From assembly GCA_029244925.1 (NCBI GenBank), contig JAQWQE010000049.1, positions 1 through 37,188 of the forward strand: 37,188 nucleotides of DNA, given 5' to 3'. The position numbers and the translations under genes were made by a program. Shown here piece after piece: positions 18,879 through 32,746 of this stretch. The notes below the pieces were generated by a model. It was not told the DNA's origin, did not search any database, and was given only the letters and a program-made list of their open reading frames with translations. Origin of the DNA: Gammaproteobacteria bacterium. GTDB taxonomy: Bacteria > Pseudomonadota > Gammaproteobacteria > Steroidobacterales > UBA11654. Every line of letters starts with the position of its first letter. Position 1 is the stretch's first letter.

Positions 18879-19759
18879 ATCAAAAGACTTCAACTGTTTT
18901 TGAAGAAAAAGCAAAGGTTATTTCACACAAAGAATACGCCGATCAACAATTTGTTCTAACTCTTAAGGCACCAAAGTCAGCATCAAAAGCAAAACCAGGA
19001 GAATTTGCATTTATCGATTGTGGAGAAAACCATCTACTGAGAAGACCGCTTTCCTACTTGAGAAATAATGCCAGCAACAACACTGTCGAATTTATGTATA
19101 AAATCTTAGGACCTGGGCTCGAAGCCTTAAGCAAATTAAAGCAAGGCGATCATGTGAATCTTATGGGTCCTATTGGAAATGGCTTTAGCCTTGAAGACCC
19201 TGTTAAACAACCAGTTATGATTGGTGGTGGTGTCGGCATACCACCAGTGCTATTTCTAGCAGAATATCTAAAACAGTGCAATGAAGCTTGCCAGCCCATC
19301 GCTTTTTTTGGCTCTGAACTACCTTTTCCTTTTGCTTTAACTCAGTCAAACATAAACATCGCTGGTGTAAAAAAAGAAAACAATACCACGATTCAATCCA
19401 TGGAAAAACTTGATATCGCTTGTCGATTATCCAGCTTTTCTAATTTTGAAGGATGCTACCCAGGCTATGTTACAGAATTGGCTGATCAATGGTTGCGTGG
19501 TTTAACTAAAGAAGAGAAAGGTGAAGTAATTATTTATGCATGTGGTCCTGAGCCAATGTTGGCAGCCACCAGTAAATTAGCTTATTCTCATGGAGTGGAC
19601 TGCAAGCTATCTCTGGAAGAATTTATGGCATGCGCTATCGGGGGTTGTGCTGGCTGCACTGTTAAAGTTTATTTACCTGAAGGTGAAGCCATGAAAAGAG
19701 TATGTGTGGATGGTCCAGTATTTGATGCGATAAGCATTTATCCCAATGAATCAGATTGA
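18875..19759 (+). CDS. pyrK: Dihydroorotate dehydrogenase B electron transfer subunit (PyrK-like)
   Basis: A 294-residue flavoprotein of the ferredoxin-NADP reductase family with a C-terminal [2Fe-2S] site. The FAD-binding barrel has RRPLSYLRNN, the NAD domain has IGGGVGIPPVLFLAEYL and YACGPEPMLAA, and the cluster ligands are C253, C258, C261 and C277 (MACAIGGCAGC followed by RVCVDGPVF). This is the PyrK signature; PyrK passes electrons from dihydroorotate dehydrogenase type 1B to NAD+. Gammaproteobacteria normally use the quinone-linked type 2 PyrD, so a PyrK in the pyrB operon is unusual, and no pyrD lies in the window. It overlaps pyrB by 4 nt and yggS by 14 nt. Family confident; partner unknown. 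Confidence 0.88.
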   Translation: MNQKTSTVFEEKAKVISHKEYADQQFVLTLKAPKSASKAKPGEFAFIDCGENHLLRRPLSYLRNNASNNTVEFMYKILGPGLEALSKLKQGDHVNLMGPIGNGFSLEDPVKQPVMIGGGVGIPPVLFLAEYLKQCNEACQPIAFFGSELPFPFALTQSNINIAGVKKENNTTIQSMEKLDIACRLSSFSNFEGCYPGYVTELADQWLRGLTKEEKGEVIIYACGPEPMLAATSKLAYSHGVDCKLSLEEFMACAIGGCAGCTVKVYLPEGEAMKRVCVDGPVFDAISIYPNESD

Positions 19760-20426
19760 GAAGAACCACCTTTTAATACAGGCTAACATTGCAAAATTGA
19801 TTGAAAATAACAATCTTGTGATTCAATCTCCTACTCTTATTGCAGTAACAAAAAAAAGGTCTATTGCAGAAATAAATACGGCCTATCAATTAGGTATTAA
19901 TCACTTTGGTGAAAACTATCTTCAAGAAGCTATTGAAAAAATTAATTTATTTAAAGAACAAGCAACTTGGCACTTTATTGGCTCAATTCAATCAAATAAA
20001 ACAAAATTAATTGCGAAGAATTTTGATTGGGTTCACACGATTACTCGAATTAAAGTGGCACAAAAACTCAATGAATACAGAACTTCAAAAATGCCATTGT
20101 TAAACATTTGCATACAAGTGAAACTCGATCAGAGTGATGTAAGAGACAGTCTATCTATTGATCAGATTCCACAATTAATGAAAGAATTAGACGTCTGCTC
20201 CAACTTAAAAGTTAGAGGATTAATGGGAATAACTCACCCTGATGCTTCAATGCAACATCGTGTTCAATGCTTTAAAAGATTAAAAGAAGCTTTTGATGCC
20301 ATCAATCAAAGTGGCTATAGTATGGATACAATCTCTCTTGGAATGTCTGATGATTATGAATTAGCCATTCAAAATCATTCAAATATGATTAGAATAGGCA
20401 CAGCATTATTTGGTATGAGAAAATAA
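19746..20426 (+). CDS. yggS: PLP homeostasis protein YggS (PLPBP/PROSC family)
   Basis: Single-domain fold-type III PLP-binding protein (226 aa) with no known catalytic reaction. It buffers pyridoxal phosphate and affects amino acid and keto acid balance. The PLP lysine is K36 in LIAVTKKRS. FGENYLQEA, WHFIGSIQSNK, GLMGI and the phosphate-binding SLGMSDDYELAI with RIGTALFG are all present. The start overlaps pyrK by 14 nt and proC follows 16 nt after the stop. yggS-proC-yggT is a widely conserved order. Confidence 0.96.
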   Translation: MNQIEKNHLLIQANIAKLIENNNLVIQSPTLIAVTKKRSIAEINTAYQLGINHFGENYLQEAIEKINLFKEQATWHFIGSIQSNKTKLIAKNFDWVHTITRIKVAQKLNEYRTSKMPLLNICIQVKLDQSDVRDSLSIDQIPQLMKELDVCSNLKVRGLMGITHPDASMQHRVQCFKRLKEAFDAINQSGYSMDTISLGMSDDYELAIQNHSNMIRIGTALFGMRK

Positions 20427-20442
20427 ATTTAGATTTTTTGTT

Positions 20443-21267
20443 ATGTATGAGAATAAAAAAATAGGTTTCATAGGTGGAGGAATGGTTGCAGAAGCAATCA
20501 TTCGAGGATTGATTCTGCATGGACACAATGCAGCCAATATTTATGTATCAGACCCCTCTGAGAAAAGAAGAGAATTACTATCGATACTCAATAAAAAATT
20601 GAACATTGATGTGAGTAATAATACCACTGTTGAACAATCTGAAATTGTCATCATGGCTGTTAAACCACAAGTTTTTATAGGTGTTGCAGAGGACATAAAA
20701 ATCAGACAGGCTCAACAGAATACAATGATTATGTCGGTTGCAGCTGGAATTGAAATGAAACAAATGCAAAATATTTTTGGAGATAAAACAAAAATATGCA
20801 GAGTAATGCCTAATACACCTTGTTTGGTTGGCCAAGGAATATCGGCCCTAATACAATCCAATTTAAGTGAGTCAGAAATTGTTCTGGCTACTTATATTTT
20901 TAATTCTGTAGGAAAAACAATATGGATCCAAGATGAAGAATGGATGCACACCATAACCGCCGTTTCTGGGAGTGGACCAGCTTACTTTTTTCATATGATG
21001 AATGTCCTCAAGCTGGCTGGAAACAAAGCTGGTATTCCAGAAGAAATATCAAAAGCTCTTGCCATACAAACCGCCTTAGGTGCGAGTCATTTAGCGTTGA
21101 ATAGTTCGGACGATCTTGAAACCTTAAAAAAGAAAGTCATGTCACCTGGAGGAACCACTGAAGCAGCATTTGATTCTTTAATGGAGAATAAGCTTGATAA
21201 GATATGGGAAGAAGCGATTGCTTCTGCGAAGCAAAGATCAATTGAATTAGGCGATCAGGAAGATTAA
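20443..21267 (+). CDS. proC: Pyrroline-5-carboxylate reductase
   Basis: Reduces pyrroline-5-carboxylate to proline with NAD(P)H (274 aa). The dinucleotide loop is IGFIGGGMVAEAIIRG. RVMPNTPCLVGQG, the catalytic/dimer motif TAVSGSGPAYFFHMM and the C-terminal SPGGTTEAAFDSL are hallmark ProC sequences. It sits between yggS and yggT, 16 nt and 30 nt away, in the plus-strand run. No oddities; the start ATG at 20443 fits the conserved beginning. Confidence 0.97.
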   Translation: MYENKKIGFIGGGMVAEAIIRGLILHGHNAANIYVSDPSEKRRELLSILNKKLNIDVSNNTTVEQSEIVIMAVKPQVFIGVAEDIKIRQAQQNTMIMSVAAGIEMKQMQNIFGDKTKICRVMPNTPCLVGQGISALIQSNLSESEIVLATYIFNSVGKTIWIQDEEWMHTITAVSGSGPAYFFHMMNVLKLAGNKAGIPEEISKALAIQTALGASHLALNSSDDLETLKKKVMSPGGTTEAAFDSLMENKLDKIWEEAIASAKQRSIELGDQED

Positions 21268-21297
21268 TTACAACTCTTGGGAGAGATATAAAGCAAG

Positions 21298-21873
21298 ATG
21301 CACCTTTTTTTATTCTTATTTAAAACACTGGTTGATTTACTGATAATTGGTTTAATGCTCAGGATATTCTGCTCACTCTGGATCAATAACACCAATCCAA
21401 TTCATCAGGCCATTGTCTTGATGACTAATCCATTGATTAGTCCATTGTCACCATACATCAGAAACAAGAAACAATTGATACTTCTCCTAGTTGGTTTGTC
21501 ATTAATGATTAAATTTTTCTCCCTCTGGTTTGCATTCTCCCTTTATTGTTTGGTAGGACTGAACCTACTTCAATTATTGGCTTTGAGTCTAATGACCTTG
21601 ATAACCTTTGTTTTAAAACTCTTTTTCTTTGGTATTTTAGCCCATGCAATTTTAAGTTGGTTGGCTCCAAATAATTATAGCCCTGCATCGGATTTTATCA
21701 GACAATTGATCGTCCCGATTCTCGGACCAATACAAAAGAGATTGCCTTACCCAGCTGGTTTAGATTTTTCACCTTTTATTGCCATAGTGATCATCCAGGC
21801 TCTTATAATGATAGTTCCAATTAATAGTGTATTGACCCAAGTGGTCTGCACCAATTTGTATCAAATACTATAA
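21298..21873 (+). CDS. yggT: YggT family integral membrane protein
   Basis: Inner-membrane protein of the YggT family (191 aa; E. coli 188), made of two repeated halves, each with two hydrophobic segments. Each half carries the family's loop: IFCSLWINNTNPIHQAIVLM with NPLISPLSPYI in the first, and ILSWLAPNNYSPASDFIRQL with PILGPIQKRLPY in the second. About four membrane segments are visible (near 5-25, 58-80, 83-112 and 158-180). It follows proC as in most gammaproteobacteria and has been linked loosely to osmotic and envelope functions. A GGGAGAG ribosome site lies 11 nt before the ATG. Confidence 0.94.
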   Translation: MHLFLFLFKTLVDLLIIGLMLRIFCSLWINNTNPIHQAIVLMTNPLISPLSPYIRNKKQLILLLVGLSLMIKFFSLWFAFSLYCLVGLNLLQLLALSLMTLITFVLKLFFFGILAHAILSWLAPNNYSPASDFIRQLIVPILGPIQKRLPYPAGLDFSPFIAIVIIQALIMIVPINSVLTQVVCTNLYQIL

Positions 21874-21885
21874 TATGAGTAGGGT

Positions 21886-22953
21886 ATGAAAGTAGTAAAA
21901 GTCAATATTTATAAACACGATATGCAGCTCAAAGCACCGTGGGCCATTGCTGGAAGAGTTATGGAATCAGTTGAAAATATTTTTATTGAACTGACAACCG
22001 AAGAGGGACTTATTGGTCTAGGATCTGGCGCTCCCTCGCCCGATGTTGCAGGAGAATCAGTTGAAGATTCTCATGTAAAAATTAAGCATTTCTCTAAGAA
22101 TTTGATAGGGGTTCATCTGGATGATGCAAACCATGTATTTGACTTACTAGAGAATAATTTAAAAAATTTCCCTGCTGCAAGATCTGCTATCGATATGGCA
22201 ATCTATGACTTATTGTCTAAATCAGAAGACAAATCACTTATTGATCTACTGGGGAGATCAATAAGGACTCTTCCCACTTCGATTACAATAGGTGTATCTT
22301 CTTTTGAAAAAACTGTAGCTGATGCTAAAGCACATATTGATAATGGATTCTCTCATCTAAAAATTAAAATTGGTGAAAATGTCGATGAAGACATTGAGAA
22401 AGTATCCGCTCTTTTTGACATAAGCCCTGAATCTGTATCAATTCGTGTGGATGCAAATCGAGGCTACTCATTGAAAGATTTAGAAAAGTTTTACGATCGC
22501 ACTCACCATTTAGGTTTGGAATTAATTGAACAGCCATTGGAAGTAGATAAAAATAAAGAAATGTTAAATTTTTCCGATGACATCAGGGCAATCTGTGTTG
22601 CTGATGAAAGTCTTCACTCACCCGCTGATGCCGTTGCTTTGGTTTCAAATCCAAAACCTTTTGGAGTTTTTAATATCAAACTAATGAAATGCGGAGGCAT
22701 ACATGAAGCCTTGAAAATTGCTAAAATAGCTGAAAATGAGGGTATTGCTTTGATGTGGGGTTGCATGGATGAAAGTAAAATTAGTATTGCTGCCGCACTG
22801 CATGCAGCATTCTCATCTTCTGCAACCAAGTATATTGATTTAGATGGTTTTTTTGATTTGGGTTGGGATTTAGTCAGTGGAGGTTACATTTGCAATAATG
22901 GGATGATGGAAACCAATGGAAAACTAGGATTAGGAGTCTTTTGCAATGAATGA
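21886..22953 (+). CDS. dgcA: Enolase-superfamily racemase: N-acetyl-D-glutamate racemase (DgcA) or dipeptide epimerase
   Basis: A 355-residue enolase-superfamily enzyme of the muconate-lactonizing subgroup. Catalytic set seen: the KxK pair K159/K161 (HLKIKIG), metal ligands D189 (DAN), E215 (EQPL) and D240 (ADES), and the second base K268 in NIKLMKCGG. This is the 1,1-proton-transfer geometry of amino-acid racemases and epimerases. A D318-x-D320 pair (IDLDG) matches the DxD that binds the dipeptide ammonium in L-Ala-D/L-Glu epimerase. However, the 8-nt overlap with a DUF1611/DgcN gene matches the D-glutamate pathway in which DgcA racemises N-acetyl-D-glutamate. I favour DgcA by context; the dipeptide epimerase reading remains open. 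Twelve nt after yggT. Confidence 0.8.
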   Translation: MKVVKVNIYKHDMQLKAPWAIAGRVMESVENIFIELTTEEGLIGLGSGAPSPDVAGESVEDSHVKIKHFSKNLIGVHLDDANHVFDLLENNLKNFPAARSAIDMAIYDLLSKSEDKSLIDLLGRSIRTLPTSITIGVSSFEKTVADAKAHIDNGFSHLKIKIGENVDEDIEKVSALFDISPESVSIRVDANRGYSLKDLEKFYDRTHHLGLELIEQPLEVDKNKEMLNFSDDIRAICVADESLHSPADAVALVSNPKPFGVFNIKLMKCGGIHEALKIAKIAENEGIALMWGCMDESKISIAAALHAAFSSSATKYIDLDGFFDLGWDLVSGGYICNNGMMETNGKLGLGVFCNE

Positions 22954-23995
22954 TCCCAGAGGCACTGCCTTTGTCTACAGTGGCGGTTTATTAGATGAGA
23001 TACATGCTAAAACAGCCCATGGTTTGCTCAGATATTCTGAACGATTCAGTATTCTAGGAATGCTTGATCAAAAGTTTGAAGGTCGCTGTTCAGATGAGAT
23101 AATCTCAAATTGCAAACTAAACATCCCAATCTATAAAGATTTTGAGACTGCGTGTCAGTCGTTAAATCAAAAGCCTGATTTTCTCGTAATCGGAGTTGCA
23201 TTTGGAGGAGGAAAACTTCCCAATGAACATCGTCAGGTGGTTGTAGATGCTTTAAATAAGGGTGTTAATGTGGTCTGTGGATTGCATGAAGTTCTAGGAG
23301 ACGATCCAGATTTTAAAATTATTGCTGAACAAAATGGTGCAGAGATTTTTGATATTAGAAAACCAAAAAATATCGATCAACTCTCTTTTTGGAGTGGAAA
23401 AATACTCAGTTTAGAAACACCCAGAATTGCTGTATTAGGAAGCGACTGCGCAGTAGGGAAAAGAACAACGTGTCAATTTCTAACCAAAGCATTGAATCAA
23501 CAATCCATTAAAACAGAGGTTATTTACACCGGGCAAACAGGCTTTCTGCAAGGCTTCAAACATGGTTTTATTCTTGATTCAACAATGAATGACTTTGTTT
23601 CAGGTGAGTTAGAGAAAGCAATCTTGGAGTGTGAAAAAGAGAGTCAACCCGACTTGATGCTGATTGAAGGCCAATCCTCTCTCAGAAATCCATCTGGACC
23701 TTGTGGCTCGGAATTGCTCTTATCTGCTGATGTCCAGGGCGTTATTCTGGTGCATCCATTTGATAGGAAATATTTTGATAACTTTGAAGAGTTTAAATGT
23801 GAACTGCCCACTCTAATAGAAGAAATAGAATTAATAAAAAGTTATGGAAAAGAAACTCTAGGCATTTGCATCAATTGCAATGATAAAGACTTCAACTCTG
23901 AGACAATAGTTCAAGAAACTGGGATTCCTGCCATCAATCCAATTCATCAAAAACTTTCACCGATTATTGAGAAGATAAAAAATACTATTTTGTGA
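22946..23995 (+). CDS. dgcN: DUF1611 protein: D-glutamate N-acetyltransferase DgcN (probable)
   Basis: A 349-residue DUF1611 protein: an N-terminal Rossmann-like domain (about residues 5-150, with FLVIGVAFGGGKLP and GLHEVLGDD) and a C-terminal P-loop domain with GSDCAVGKRTT (165-175), YTGQTGFLQG and LMLIEGQSSLRNPSG. Members paired with a DgcA-type racemase acetylate D-glutamate with acetyl-CoA; the N-acetyl-D-Glu is then racemised and deacetylated to L-glutamate (pathway described in marine Proteobacteria and haloarchaea). The start overlaps dgcA by 8 nt, showing coupling. The 3' end overlaps the convergent TerB-like gene by 11 nt. No dgcR regulator and no deacetylase lie beside it. Function is inferred from family and pairing. 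Confidence 0.8.
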   Translation: MNDPRGTAFVYSGGLLDEIHAKTAHGLLRYSERFSILGMLDQKFEGRCSDEIISNCKLNIPIYKDFETACQSLNQKPDFLVIGVAFGGGKLPNEHRQVVVDALNKGVNVVCGLHEVLGDDPDFKIIAEQNGAEIFDIRKPKNIDQLSFWSGKILSLETPRIAVLGSDCAVGKRTTCQFLTKALNQQSIKTEVIYTGQTGFLQGFKHGFILDSTMNDFVSGELEKAILECEKESQPDLMLIEGQSSLRNPSGPCGSELLLSADVQGVILVHPFDRKYFDNFEEFKCELPTLIEEIELIKSYGKETLGICINCNDKDFNSETIVQETGIPAINPIHQKLSPIIEKIKNTIL

Positions 23996-29790: not shown

Positions 29791-30858
29791 ATGAATTCTC
29801 TTAATGGTAGTTTAGCTCTAAAAAATATTTGTGTAATCAGATTATCAGCACTTGGCGATTGTTGTCATGCTTTAGCGATAACCCAACATTTACGAAATCA
29901 ATTACCTCAAGCTAATATCACATGGATTATTGGCAAGACTGAGTACCAACTTGTTGATCAAATAACAGACATTCAATTCATCGTGGTTGATAAATCAAAG
30001 CTGTTTAAATCTTTAAAACAAGTCTTTTTAGCATTAAGGCATACAACCTTTGATGTGGTCTTAAATATGCATGCTTCCATGAGTGCAAATTTAGTAAGTC
30101 TAATGGTGAAATCAAAAAGAAAAATTGGTTATGACAAGACCAGGGCCAGAGATTTACAGAATTTATTCTGCCATGAATCAATACCTACAGAAAGCAATCA
30201 ACATGTTTTGGATGGCATGCTTGAGTTCCCAAAATTCATTGGGATCGATTGCAATAAACCAAAATGGAACTTACCTATTTGCAAAAAAGCTGAAGACACT
30301 ATGAGGTCTCACATCAAACTAGATCAAATCACCTGCGTGATCAGTCCCTGCAGCAGTCAACGTTATGGTGATCAATACAATAGAAGTTGGCCAATTGAAA
30401 ACTACATTGAGGTCATCCATCACCTGATTAAAATAGATACGCAAGTTATTATCACGGGTGGCAACACAGAAATAGAAAAAAAATATTCAGAAGAAATCTC
30501 TAAAACTTTCCCAAACCAAATTACTAATTTAGTTGGTAAGAGTTCTATCAAAGAATTGGCTGCCATTATCAGCTTGTCGGATTTTATTATTTCACCTGAT
30601 TCGGGACCTGCCCATATAGCCACAGTGACAAACACCCCAGTTATTGGCCTTTATGCTATGACTAACCCCTTAAGAAGTGGTCCTTATAATTCTCAAGAAT
30701 GGGTTATTTCTGCCTATGAAGAATCACTGAACACCTTTATGAACACCAATTCTGAAAATGTAAAATGGGAACAGAAAATAAAACATCCCGAGGCCATGAG
30801 TCTTATTCTACCCAAGACAGTAACGCATTGTATTGATCAACTAATAGCGACCTTATAA
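29791..30858 (+). CDS. Lipopolysaccharide heptosyltransferase family protein (GT9)
   Basis: Glycosyltransferase family 9 enzyme (355 aa), the ADP-heptose:LPS heptosyltransferase family of inner-core synthesis. The N-terminal acceptor-binding start is ICVIRLSALGDCCHALAI. The C-terminal donor site has LVGKSSIKELAAIISLSDFIISPDSGPAHIA followed by GLYAMTNPLRSGPY. I cannot tell heptosyltransferase I, II or a later paralogue apart, so no symbol is given. The ATG at 29791 has no clear Shine-Dalgarno. The conserved motif begins near residue 13, and no later in-frame ATG is suitable. It overlaps the convergent cyclodeaminase-family gene by 22 nt. Confidence 0.9.
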   Translation: MNSLNGSLALKNICVIRLSALGDCCHALAITQHLRNQLPQANITWIIGKTEYQLVDQITDIQFIVVDKSKLFKSLKQVFLALRHTTFDVVLNMHASMSANLVSLMVKSKRKIGYDKTRARDLQNLFCHESIPTESNQHVLDGMLEFPKFIGIDCNKPKWNLPICKKAEDTMRSHIKLDQITCVISPCSSQRYGDQYNRSWPIENYIEVIHHLIKIDTQVIITGGNTEIEKKYSEEISKTFPNQITNLVGKSSIKELAAIISLSDFIISPDSGPAHIATVTNTPVIGLYAMTNPLRSGPYNSQEWVISAYEESLNTFMNTNSENVKWEQKIKHPEAMSLILPKTVTHCIDQLIATL

Positions 30859-31793
30859 ACCGCTTCTGCTATCACTAAATCTTGAACGGCCACTCCAGTC
30901 AAATCTGCAACTGTTATCTGGTCAAAATGATTTCGACCTTGGGCTGATCCTTCAAATATTTGTCCTATTTCAACCAATTCATTGGGTTGTATCGTTCCTT
31001 TTTTTAAGGCTTGATGTATTTCACCCCTTAATTGATTCTGCGGAATACTATCAGCAACCACTATGTCTGCTCTGGATAAGATATCAGAATCCAATTCACA
31101 TTTTTCCGGCGTGTCTGAACCTACAGCTGTGATGTGAGTTCCTGGTTGCACCCAATTGGATTGAATGATTGCCTTCTTTGAAGAAGTCGTGGTAATAATC
31201 AGTTTATTTTGTTTTATCACATCAGCCAAATCTTCATGTATTAACAATTCAGCGTCAAGATCAGAAAGATCCTGTTGCAATTTCTTACTCTTTTCTTTGT
31301 CTCGTCCCCAAACATTTATGATTTTAATTGGCATAAGTTCCATCAAGCATCTTGCTTGGTATCTGGCTTGAACGCCATTCCCTATAATAGCTACACTTTC
31401 AGTGCCTTCATTAGCCAAGAGGACTGAAGCCATAGCCCCTGCAATACCAGTTCTTAAATCAGTTAAGTTAGCTTGATCAATCAATATTGCTTTTGGAATA
31501 CCTGTGACTATGTCAAACAGGAGCATCATCCCTTGCCCGGGCTTTACTCCTAATTGATTATTGCCAGAGAAGCCTGAAGCAATCTTAATCACGTAGAAAG
31601 ACCCGCCTTTGATATACCCATATTTAATATGTACTTCGCCAGGTGGTTCCTCAAACAGTAGTTCGCCCACTGGAGGTATCTCTGCATTGCCATTGGAGTA
31701 TTCAATAAATGCCTGTTTCATTGGCTCATGTATCTCAATTTGATCAAGCAAAGATGATATTTTCTCCCAATCAAGAACAATGGGTTGAGTCAT
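30837..31793 (-). CDS. Ornithine cyclodeaminase / mu-crystallin family protein
   Basis: A 318-residue NAD(P)-dependent enzyme of the OCD/mu-crystallin family, which includes ornithine cyclodeaminase, alanine dehydrogenase, ketimine reductases and EutC of ectoine catabolism. Features are EVHIKYGYIKGGSFYVIKIA, DQANLTDLRTGIAGAMAS (substrate and catalytic Asp/Arg region), the Rossmann loop IGNGVQARYQAR, and GTHITAVGSDTPEKCELD. The 4-nt overlap (ATGA) with the dehydratase upstream shows a coupled pair. That pairing, rather than ornithine metabolism, suggests joint handling of a beta-hydroxy or imino amino acid. Ends 22 nt inside the convergent GT9 gene. Confidence 0.87.
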   Translation of the reverse strand: MTQPIVLDWEKISSLLDQIEIHEPMKQAFIEYSNGNAEIPPVGELLFEEPPGEVHIKYGYIKGGSFYVIKIASGFSGNNQLGVKPGQGMMLLFDIVTGIPKAILIDQANLTDLRTGIAGAMASVLLANEGTESVAIIGNGVQARYQARCLMELMPIKIINVWGRDKEKSKKLQQDLSDLDAELLIHEDLADVIKQNKLIITTTSSKKAIIQSNWVQPGTHITAVGSDTPEKCELDSDILSRADIVVADSIPQNQLRGEIHQALKKGTIQPNELVEIGQIFEGSAQGRNHFDQITVADLTGVAVQDLVIAEAVYKVAIS

Positions 31794-32746
31794 GCAATAA
31801 TCTCCTTTATTTTATCCATGCTTATATTGGCACCACAAATAATGATTAATACTCGTTTGCCTTTTAAGTGTTGTTTAAGTTTTATAAACCCAGCAACAGC
31901 CGTGCCAGCAGCACCTTCTATCATCATTTGATGTGAATCCATAAAAGACTTCATGGCGCTGGCAATTTCATTTTCACTCACCAAAATAGACTGATCCACT
32001 ATGGATTGACAATAATCAAAAGTAATGGATCCACGTTCTAACGCTCCTGCAGATCCATCACTCAAAGTATCCAAATGGTTAATATCTATAATGTACCCAG
32101 CCTGCAAGGCATAATGCATAGCGGCTGAGTGTGCTGGGGAGCAAGCTATCACCTTTGTATTGGAATTTTTTTGCTTTAAATAGCCTCCAATGCCCGAAAT
32201 TAAGCCGCCTCCACCAACACAAACTAATACAACATCTATCGACTGCATCTGTTCATAAGCTTCAGCAGCGGTGGTTCCTTGCCCAACAATTACATCATAA
32301 TCATTGTAAGGAGAAAGGAATGGTAAATTATGCTTTTCTGCATATAGCCGGCCGGCAGTTTCTGCATCTCCAGATGTTTCTCCCTCAATCTTAAAGTCAG
32401 CCCCCAAATATTTTATTTTATTCAACTTTGCTGGAGAAACACTCTCAGGAAGAAATATCAATGTGTCTAAATTCAAAATTCCTGCAGCATAGGCAACAGC
32501 AGAACCATGATTACCAGATGAAGCTGTTATGATTTTTTTAGGATTTTCTTCGGAGAGCAGCATCAATTTATTACTCGCTCCTCTTGCTTTGAATGAGCCA
32601 GTGACCTGATAATTCTCTAATTTTAAAAAAACTTCTGCTTCAGATTCTTCACTCAAGGAAGGTGAAAATTGCAATGGTGTTCTTCGAATAATTTTCTGTA
32701 TTCTCTCAAGAGCAATCTCAACGTCCTTATAAAAATTATCTTGCAT
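31790..32746 (-). CDS. PLP-dependent threonine/serine dehydratase-like protein
   Basis: Fold-type II PLP enzyme (318 aa) of the threonine/serine dehydratase family. The Schiff-base lysine is K53 in GSFKARGA. ASSGNHGSAVA binds the substrate carboxylate and GGGGL (178-182) the PLP phosphate. There is no C-terminal ACT domain, so it is not the feedback-regulated IlvA; the short form resembles catabolic TdcB, serine racemase or EutB. It is coupled by 4 nt to the OCD-family gene and overlaps the glycosyltransferase gene upstream by 11 nt. Substrate not determinable; L-threonine, serine or hydroxyaspartate are candidates. Confidence 0.88.
   Translation of the reverse strand: MQDNFYKDVEIALERIQKIIRRTPLQFSPSLSEESEAEVFLKLENYQVTGSFKARGASNKLMLLSEENPKKIITASSGNHGSAVAYAAGILNLDTLIFLPESVSPAKLNKIKYLGADFKIEGETSGDAETAGRLYAEKHNLPFLSPYNDYDVIVGQGTTAAEAYEQMQSIDVVLVCVGGGGLISGIGGYLKQKNSNTKVIACSPAHSAAMHYALQAGYIIDINHLDTLSDGSAGALERGSITFDYCQSIVDQSILVSENEIASAMKSFMDSHQMMIEGAAGTAVAGFIKLKQHLKGKRVLIIICGANISMDKIKEIIA

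Follow-up and report, generated by a model that had tools for sequence, protein, structure and literature searches.

A putative second racemase-DUF1611 module, distinct from DgcN-DgcA, in a gammaproteobacterial genome

An enolase-superfamily racemase gene that overlaps a gene for a DUF1611 protein immediately calls to mind the D-glutamate pathway formed by DgcN and DgcA, in which the DgcN reaction is the acetylation of D-Glu. Such a pair lies within the window (the whole stretch of 37,188 nucleotides that was analysed), and a preliminary description made from the sequence read it as probably this pathway. Does the pair belong to DgcN-DgcA, or does it represent another use of the same two protein families? 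The genes concerned, and their context, are as follows.

1561-2769, + strand: AnmK, anhydro-MurNAc kinase (PF03702, 374.7 bits); context, outside the module
19746-21873, + strand: yggS-proC-yggT run upstream of the pair
21886-22953, + strand: racemase open reading frame (ORF), 355 amino acids, ATG start
22946-23995, + strand: DUF1611 protein ORF, 349 amino acids, ATG start
22946-22953, + strand: overlap of 8 nt between the two genes, read from the sequence

The ORFs and their Pfam domains bear out this overlapping arrangement, and the PF03702 match places AnmK within the window as described. In the upstream run ProC was confirmed, and the positions and sequences of the other two genes agree with YggS and YggT. 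The order proC, yggT, racemase-DUF1611 pair is kept in all ten of the relatives from the same genus or family that were searched. In a genome of the sister genus (G010; loci L003 and L031) the racemase gene is intact and the DUF1611 gene lies in two pieces in different frames, a frameshift that is due to assembly error or decay. Elsewhere in the window, on the - strand at 30837-32746, an ornithine-cyclodeaminase-like gene (PRK06823, 314.3 bits, under the cut-off) and a threonine/serine dehydratase gene (PRK06815, 394.1 bits, over the cut-off) are adjacent to one another beside glycosyltransferase genes.

Both proteins match their Pfam families far above the gathering scores. The racemase carries MR_MLE_N (54.3 bits) and MR_MLE_C (122.2 bits), the combination that places it in the muconate-lactonizing (MLE) subgroup of the enolase superfamily, and its partner carries DUF1611_N and DUF1611. 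Scores against more specific profiles fall well short of their cut-offs: the racemase obtains 171.5 bits with DgcA (NF042940, cut-off 400), and 200.8 and 116.8 bits with L-Ala-D/L-Glu epimerase (AEE; NF041118, cut-off 500, and NF011708, cut-off 343), whereas the DUF1611 protein reaches 129.6 bits for DgcN (NF041892, cut-off 480), its sole NCBIfam match. These low values are not a product of the lineage, because DgcA/DgcN pairs from the same order score at or just under the cut-offs (384-413 bits for DgcA and 457-483 bits for DgcN).

Phylogeny separates the pair from DgcN-DgcA on both sides. Maximum-likelihood analysis united the window racemase with 28 relatives and with 3rit, the Methylococcus capsulatus dipeptide epimerase, in one clade (support 100/100), and placed the DgcA-type racemases in a separate clade that includes the E. 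coli AEE (1jpd) and 4gfi. Window-type DUF1611 proteins likewise form one clade (100/99), from which the DgcN clade, with 7xrj, stands apart. The part of the earlier proposal that survives is the coupling of a dipeptide-epimerase-type racemase to a DUF1611 enzyme; neither scores nor trees support the DgcA and DgcN labels, and in the trees the racemase groups with dipeptide epimerases and its partner falls outside the DgcN clade. Holding the window type and DgcA alone as one clade was rejected (AU test, p 0.000175), which suggests that the coupling of a racemase to a DUF1611 enzyme arose independently in the two types. We put this as a suggestion because a larger clade that also takes in the E. 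coli AEE and 4gfi was not rejected (p 0.167).

The closest solved relative of the racemase is 3rit (277.7 bits, 41% identity), whose entry title reads 'complexed with Mg and dipeptide L-Arg-D-Lys'. It is also the top match of the AlphaFold2 model (pLDDT 92.6; Z 51.7, rmsd 1.4 over 353 residues). By homology, then, we classify the protein as a racemase or epimerase of the MLE subgroup, in the clade of the M. capsulatus dipeptide epimerase. The residues on which the comparison turns are listed here.

22360-22368, + strand: K159-x-K161 (KxK motif), predicted to be catalytic and to supply one acid/base lysine; invariant in 52 relatives, by homology with AEE K162
22678-22680, + strand: K265, predicted second acid/base lysine; invariant in 52 relatives, by homology with AEE K268
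22768-22770, + strand: D295 in WGC[MNF]DES, a clade marker
22837-22845, + strand: D318-L319-D320 (DxD); also in DgcA and hence not diagnostic

The window racemase retains the catalytic lysines, Mg ligands and DxD motif of dipeptide epimerases (K161, K265, D189, E215, D240, D318 and D320). It shares its fold, catalytic residues and the WGCxDES and DLDG motifs with the M. capsulatus enzyme (3rit, 3ro6), from which it differs at residues 51-53 (S51-P52-D53 rather than E51-R52-H53). The L-Ala-D/L-Glu epimerases 1jpm and 1jpd and the T. maritima dipeptide epimerase 2zad have the same fold, KxK motif, Mg ligands and DxD, but they belong to separate clades and lack the S132, W291 and D295 that set the window clade apart; most other dipeptide epimerases, and DgcA, have Ile, Leu, Gly, Val or Thr at the site of D295. 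Many members of the window clade also have an acidic residue at positions 51-53, as do 3rit (E51) and the N-succinyl Arg/Lys racemase 2p88 (DDH). This residue changes position and is absent from some members, and the correlation is a weak hint that the substrate has a cationic side chain. Arg24 is found in the window racemase, in 3rit and in the B. subtilis AEE, whereas the relatives of the window racemase carry His24, a difference that may mean that substrate specificity varies within the family.

The presence of D318 and D320 (codons 22837-22839 and 22843-22845) had been reported correctly, and the DLDG motif that holds them is invariant across 52 aligned relatives. It had further been argued that a DxD pair, which binds the free ammonium of dipeptides, fits poorly with an N-acetylated substrate. 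This argument fails, in that all nine DgcA-type racemases compared from the same order or class have DLDG, DIDG or DLDA at this site, one of them in a protein that exceeds the DgcA cut-off (413 versus 400 bits). Among the racemases compared, only 2p88 lacks the motif. We therefore rejected DxD as a test for distinguishing dipeptides from N-acyl substrates.

The partner protein is also modelled with confidence (pLDDT 93.5), and its features are listed below.

22946-23995, + strand: predicted domains of the DUF1611 protein, a Rossmann-like N-terminal domain and a dethiobiotin-synthetase-like P-loop C-terminal domain (from the model)
23438-23470, + strand: P-loop GSDCAVGKRTT, residues 165-175, aligned with GTDCSVGKMYT of DgcN
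23666-23713, + strand: EGQSSLRNPSGPCGSE, residues 241-256, the subfamily signature

The model matches 2obn (Z 38.6), 2g0t (Z 37.3) and DgcN itself (7xrj, Z 30.8; entry title 'N-acetyltransferase DgcN-25328'), and the next matches for residues 156-349 are dethiobiotin synthetases (Z 14.8). Within the P-loop, G165, D167, G171, K172, R173 and T174 are invariant across 46 DUF1611 relatives. The fold and the P-loop, AKT and TGQTG motifs are all present, as they are in DUF1611 subfamilies generally. Distinction comes instead from the signature position, where the window protein has its EGQSSLRNPSGPCG loop, DgcN has EGQGSLFHxxYSGVT, and a third subfamily has mostly EGQGALSHPAF. This third subfamily, the sister of the window type (99/96), comprises DUF1611 proteins that adjoin ornithine-racemase-like PLP enzymes, which have a fold unrelated to that of the window racemase and score 349-380 bits against NF040742, below its cut-off of 480, so that ornithine is no more than a candidate substrate for them. 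In four gammaproteobacterial genomes (L150, L151, L163 and L165) the sister-subfamily gene lies directly before the gene for the PLP racemase. We know of no activity for any DUF1611 protein of the window-type subfamily, and its differing signature loop may indicate a reaction other than that of DgcN. The window pair and DgcN-DgcA both join a DUF1611 enzyme to an enolase-superfamily racemase and share the P-loop and DxD, but they differ in clade, in the DUF1611 signature loop and in the 50s and 290s loops of the racemase.

Scanning bacterial and archaeal genomes with the clade alignment yielded 80 loci. The two genes are side by side in 67 of these, in both gene orders, mostly less than 60 bp apart and often overlapping, and several of the remaining loci are broken by contig ends. 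Since the loci were fetched independently and the genes adjoin in either order, the pairing is not due to chance. Pairs occur in Bacteroidota, Thermodesulfobacteriota, Marinimicrobia, Planctomycetota and Proteobacteria. A Methylococcus-like genome with a copy 90% identical to 3rit has a DUF1611 gene of the same subfamily directly upstream, and a DUF1611 enzyme is very likely the working partner of the M. capsulatus L-Arg-D-Lys epimerase. We rejected a gene fusion in that genome, where a 754-amino-acid frame is merely open through the upstream gene and DUF1611 lies in another frame.

No gene other than the two recurs widely among the neighbours of the fetched loci. A shared operon partner sought in Bacteroidota was not found, only the pair recurring there. 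Two Desulfobacterota loci (L042 and L053) have the order Lrp/AsnC regulator, racemase, DUF1611, D-aminoacylase-like amidohydrolase, peptide-binding protein and permease, and a third (L084) runs from an M20 N-acyl hydrolase through the racemase and DUF1611 to a peptide-binding protein. In Marinimicrobia (L047, with equal gene sizes in L054) a PLP enzyme, an S9 peptidase and an amidohydrolase precede the pair. Two genomes (G150 and G270) carry the racemase and DUF1611 genes apart, with the latter adjoining genes for oligopeptide ABC transporters and a run of serine-metabolism genes. The peptide transporters, D-aminoacylase-like amidohydrolases and Lrp regulators at some loci suggest catabolism of a D-amino-acid compound. 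At two loci a single protein encoded upstream of the pair (L051:2300-4825 and L088:2-2590) combines a serine beta-lactamase/D-aminopeptidase-like domain with a D-aminoacylase-like amidohydrolase domain.

Starting from the observed family membership, conserved coupling and conserved catalytic residues, we tentatively favour, at somewhat less than an even chance, a 3rit-type racemisation module separate from DgcN-DgcA, in which N-acylation by the DUF1611 enzyme would be followed by racemisation and release by a hydrolase. N-acylation followed by racemisation is proposed on the precedent of DgcN, which acetylates D-Glu according to Yu et al. (2023) as cited in PMC12363236. The DUF1611 enzyme would N-acylate a D-amino acid, by analogy with DgcN with an acetyl group taken from acetyl-CoA, and the resulting N-acyl-D-amino acid would act as a small dipeptide mimic. 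The racemase would hold the carboxylate of this compound on Mg2+ (D189, E215 and D240) and invert the configuration at the alpha carbon, with K161 and K265 on either side, after which a general N-acyl-L-amino-acid hydrolase could free the L-amino acid; the M20 family has one match in the window's genome. The natural substrate is probably not free D-Glu, and the best, though weak, fit is a cationic or polar D-amino acid of the Lys, Arg, Orn or diaminopimelate type.

This module is favoured by the position of the racemase with 3rit, apart from DgcA; by the sister relationship of its partner to the DUF1611 subfamily beside ornithine-racemase-like enzymes; by adjacency across several phyla and in the genome with the 3rit relative; by the regulator, amidohydrolase, hydrolase and transporter genes near some loci; and by the acidic 51-53 residue that many members have in common with 3rit and 2p88. 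Against the module as read here stand the retention of DxD, a feature of enzymes whose substrates present a free amino group, and the lack of shared operon neighbours past the pair at most Bacteroidota loci.

The main rival dispenses with acylation before the racemase. Here the racemase would epimerise free dipeptides with a D-residue, cationic as for M. capsulatus, and the DUF1611 enzyme would catalyse some other reaction, which may depend on ATP, with the product or a D-amino acid as its substrate. We regard this as possible but doubtful. The ligand in the nearest solved enzyme, the retained DxD, the oligopeptide transporter genes beside the pair in Desulfobacterota (L042, L053 and L084) or beside the DUF1611 gene alone (G150 and G270), and the likeness of the P-loop domain to ATP-using dethiobiotin synthetases are all consistent with it. 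However, DgcA keeps DxD too, and the near-obligate coupling to DUF1611 is left unexplained when the sole characterised member of that family modifies an amino acid at its amino group.

A link to muropeptide recycling was also considered, in which the racemase would be an L-Ala-D/L-Glu epimerase feeding the breakdown of murein tripeptide together with AnmK and Mpl. The peptidoglycan genes of the window's family were also surveyed. MurI was found in none of its 11 genomes, and MurC, MurD and MurE over their cut-offs were absent from ten of them (G001-G010; 64-92% complete), eight of which have MraY over its cut-off. The genes retained are mraY, murG, murB, ddl, murF and mpl. Three division clusters (L222, L223 and L224, from G000, G001 and G008) have the order ftsI-mraY-ftsW-murG-murB-ddl-ftsQ-ftsA-lpxC, with ddl, ftsQ, ftsA and lpxC named by their start sequences, and the slots that murE, murF, murD and murC occupy in the cluster of a relative from the order are closed up. 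MurF and Mpl, over their own cut-offs, are encoded elsewhere in the genome. In these clusters ftsZ, recognised from its start sequence, does not follow ftsA but stands between mraZ and mraW/rsmH (L222:1202-2335, L223:902-2038 and L224:437-1612). The window's assembly does include a 16.9-kb contig (C14 of G000, L206; 1.07% of the assembly) with murE-murD-murC-dapF and a lysA-like gene; it is absent from every relative and may be contamination.

Mpl attaches the L-Ala-D-Glu-mDAP tripeptide (PMC3060825). If the loss of MurI, MurC, MurD and MurE is real, UDP-MurNAc would therefore be loaded with salvaged tripeptide alone, and it is possible that the family depends on such salvage. A link between this gene loss and the racemase-DUF1611 pair is a possibility. 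All matches to the D-amino-acid aminotransferase profile fell under its cut-off, and MurD2-MurL was rejected as the lineage's source of D-Glu once the divergent Mur ligase had been identified as Mpl. As a role for the pair, muropeptide recycling is nevertheless unlikely. The presence of AnmK in the window and Mpl in the genome, the alignment of Arg24 with Arg24 of the B. subtilis AEE, and the lack of MurI in the lineage speak for it, but the racemase scores below both AEE cut-offs, its clade residues S132, W291 and D295 are unlike those of AEEs, its relatives carry His24, and neither MpaA nor an endopeptidase lies beside the pair.

A functional but diverged DgcN-DgcA pathway for D-Glu is a shade more improbable still: the pair has the same two superfamilies in the same coupling, with AKT, P-loop, TGQTG and EGQ motifs in common, and no NCBIfam model other than DgcN matches the DUF1611 protein, but scores far below the equivalog cut-offs, positions outside both clades and the existence in the same order of DgcA/DgcN pairs that score at or just under the cut-offs weigh against it. 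It is very unlikely that the pair has turned to cell-wall use here, handling D-residues from salvaged murein peptide or making the D-centre of a free peptide that Mpl attaches to UDP-MurNAc, a reading under which a change of role would explain why the window genes have long branches in both trees.

We therefore describe the pair, from sequence comparison, as what appears to be a second, broad racemase-DUF1611 module distinct from DgcN-DgcA. Surveys of D-amino-acid use are likely to label DUF1611 proteins as dgcN (compare the metagenome counts in PMC12363236), and a loose search would miscount this second module as the D-Glu pathway. For the solved M. capsulatus epimerase, we found no record of a cellular role, to which the coupling described here is relevant. 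DUF1611 proteins adjoin three groups of racemases, namely the DgcA type, the 3rit type and the ornithine-racemase-like PLP enzymes, and this recurrence suggests a general rule, in which the DUF1611 enzyme would prepare a racemase's substrate or take it over.
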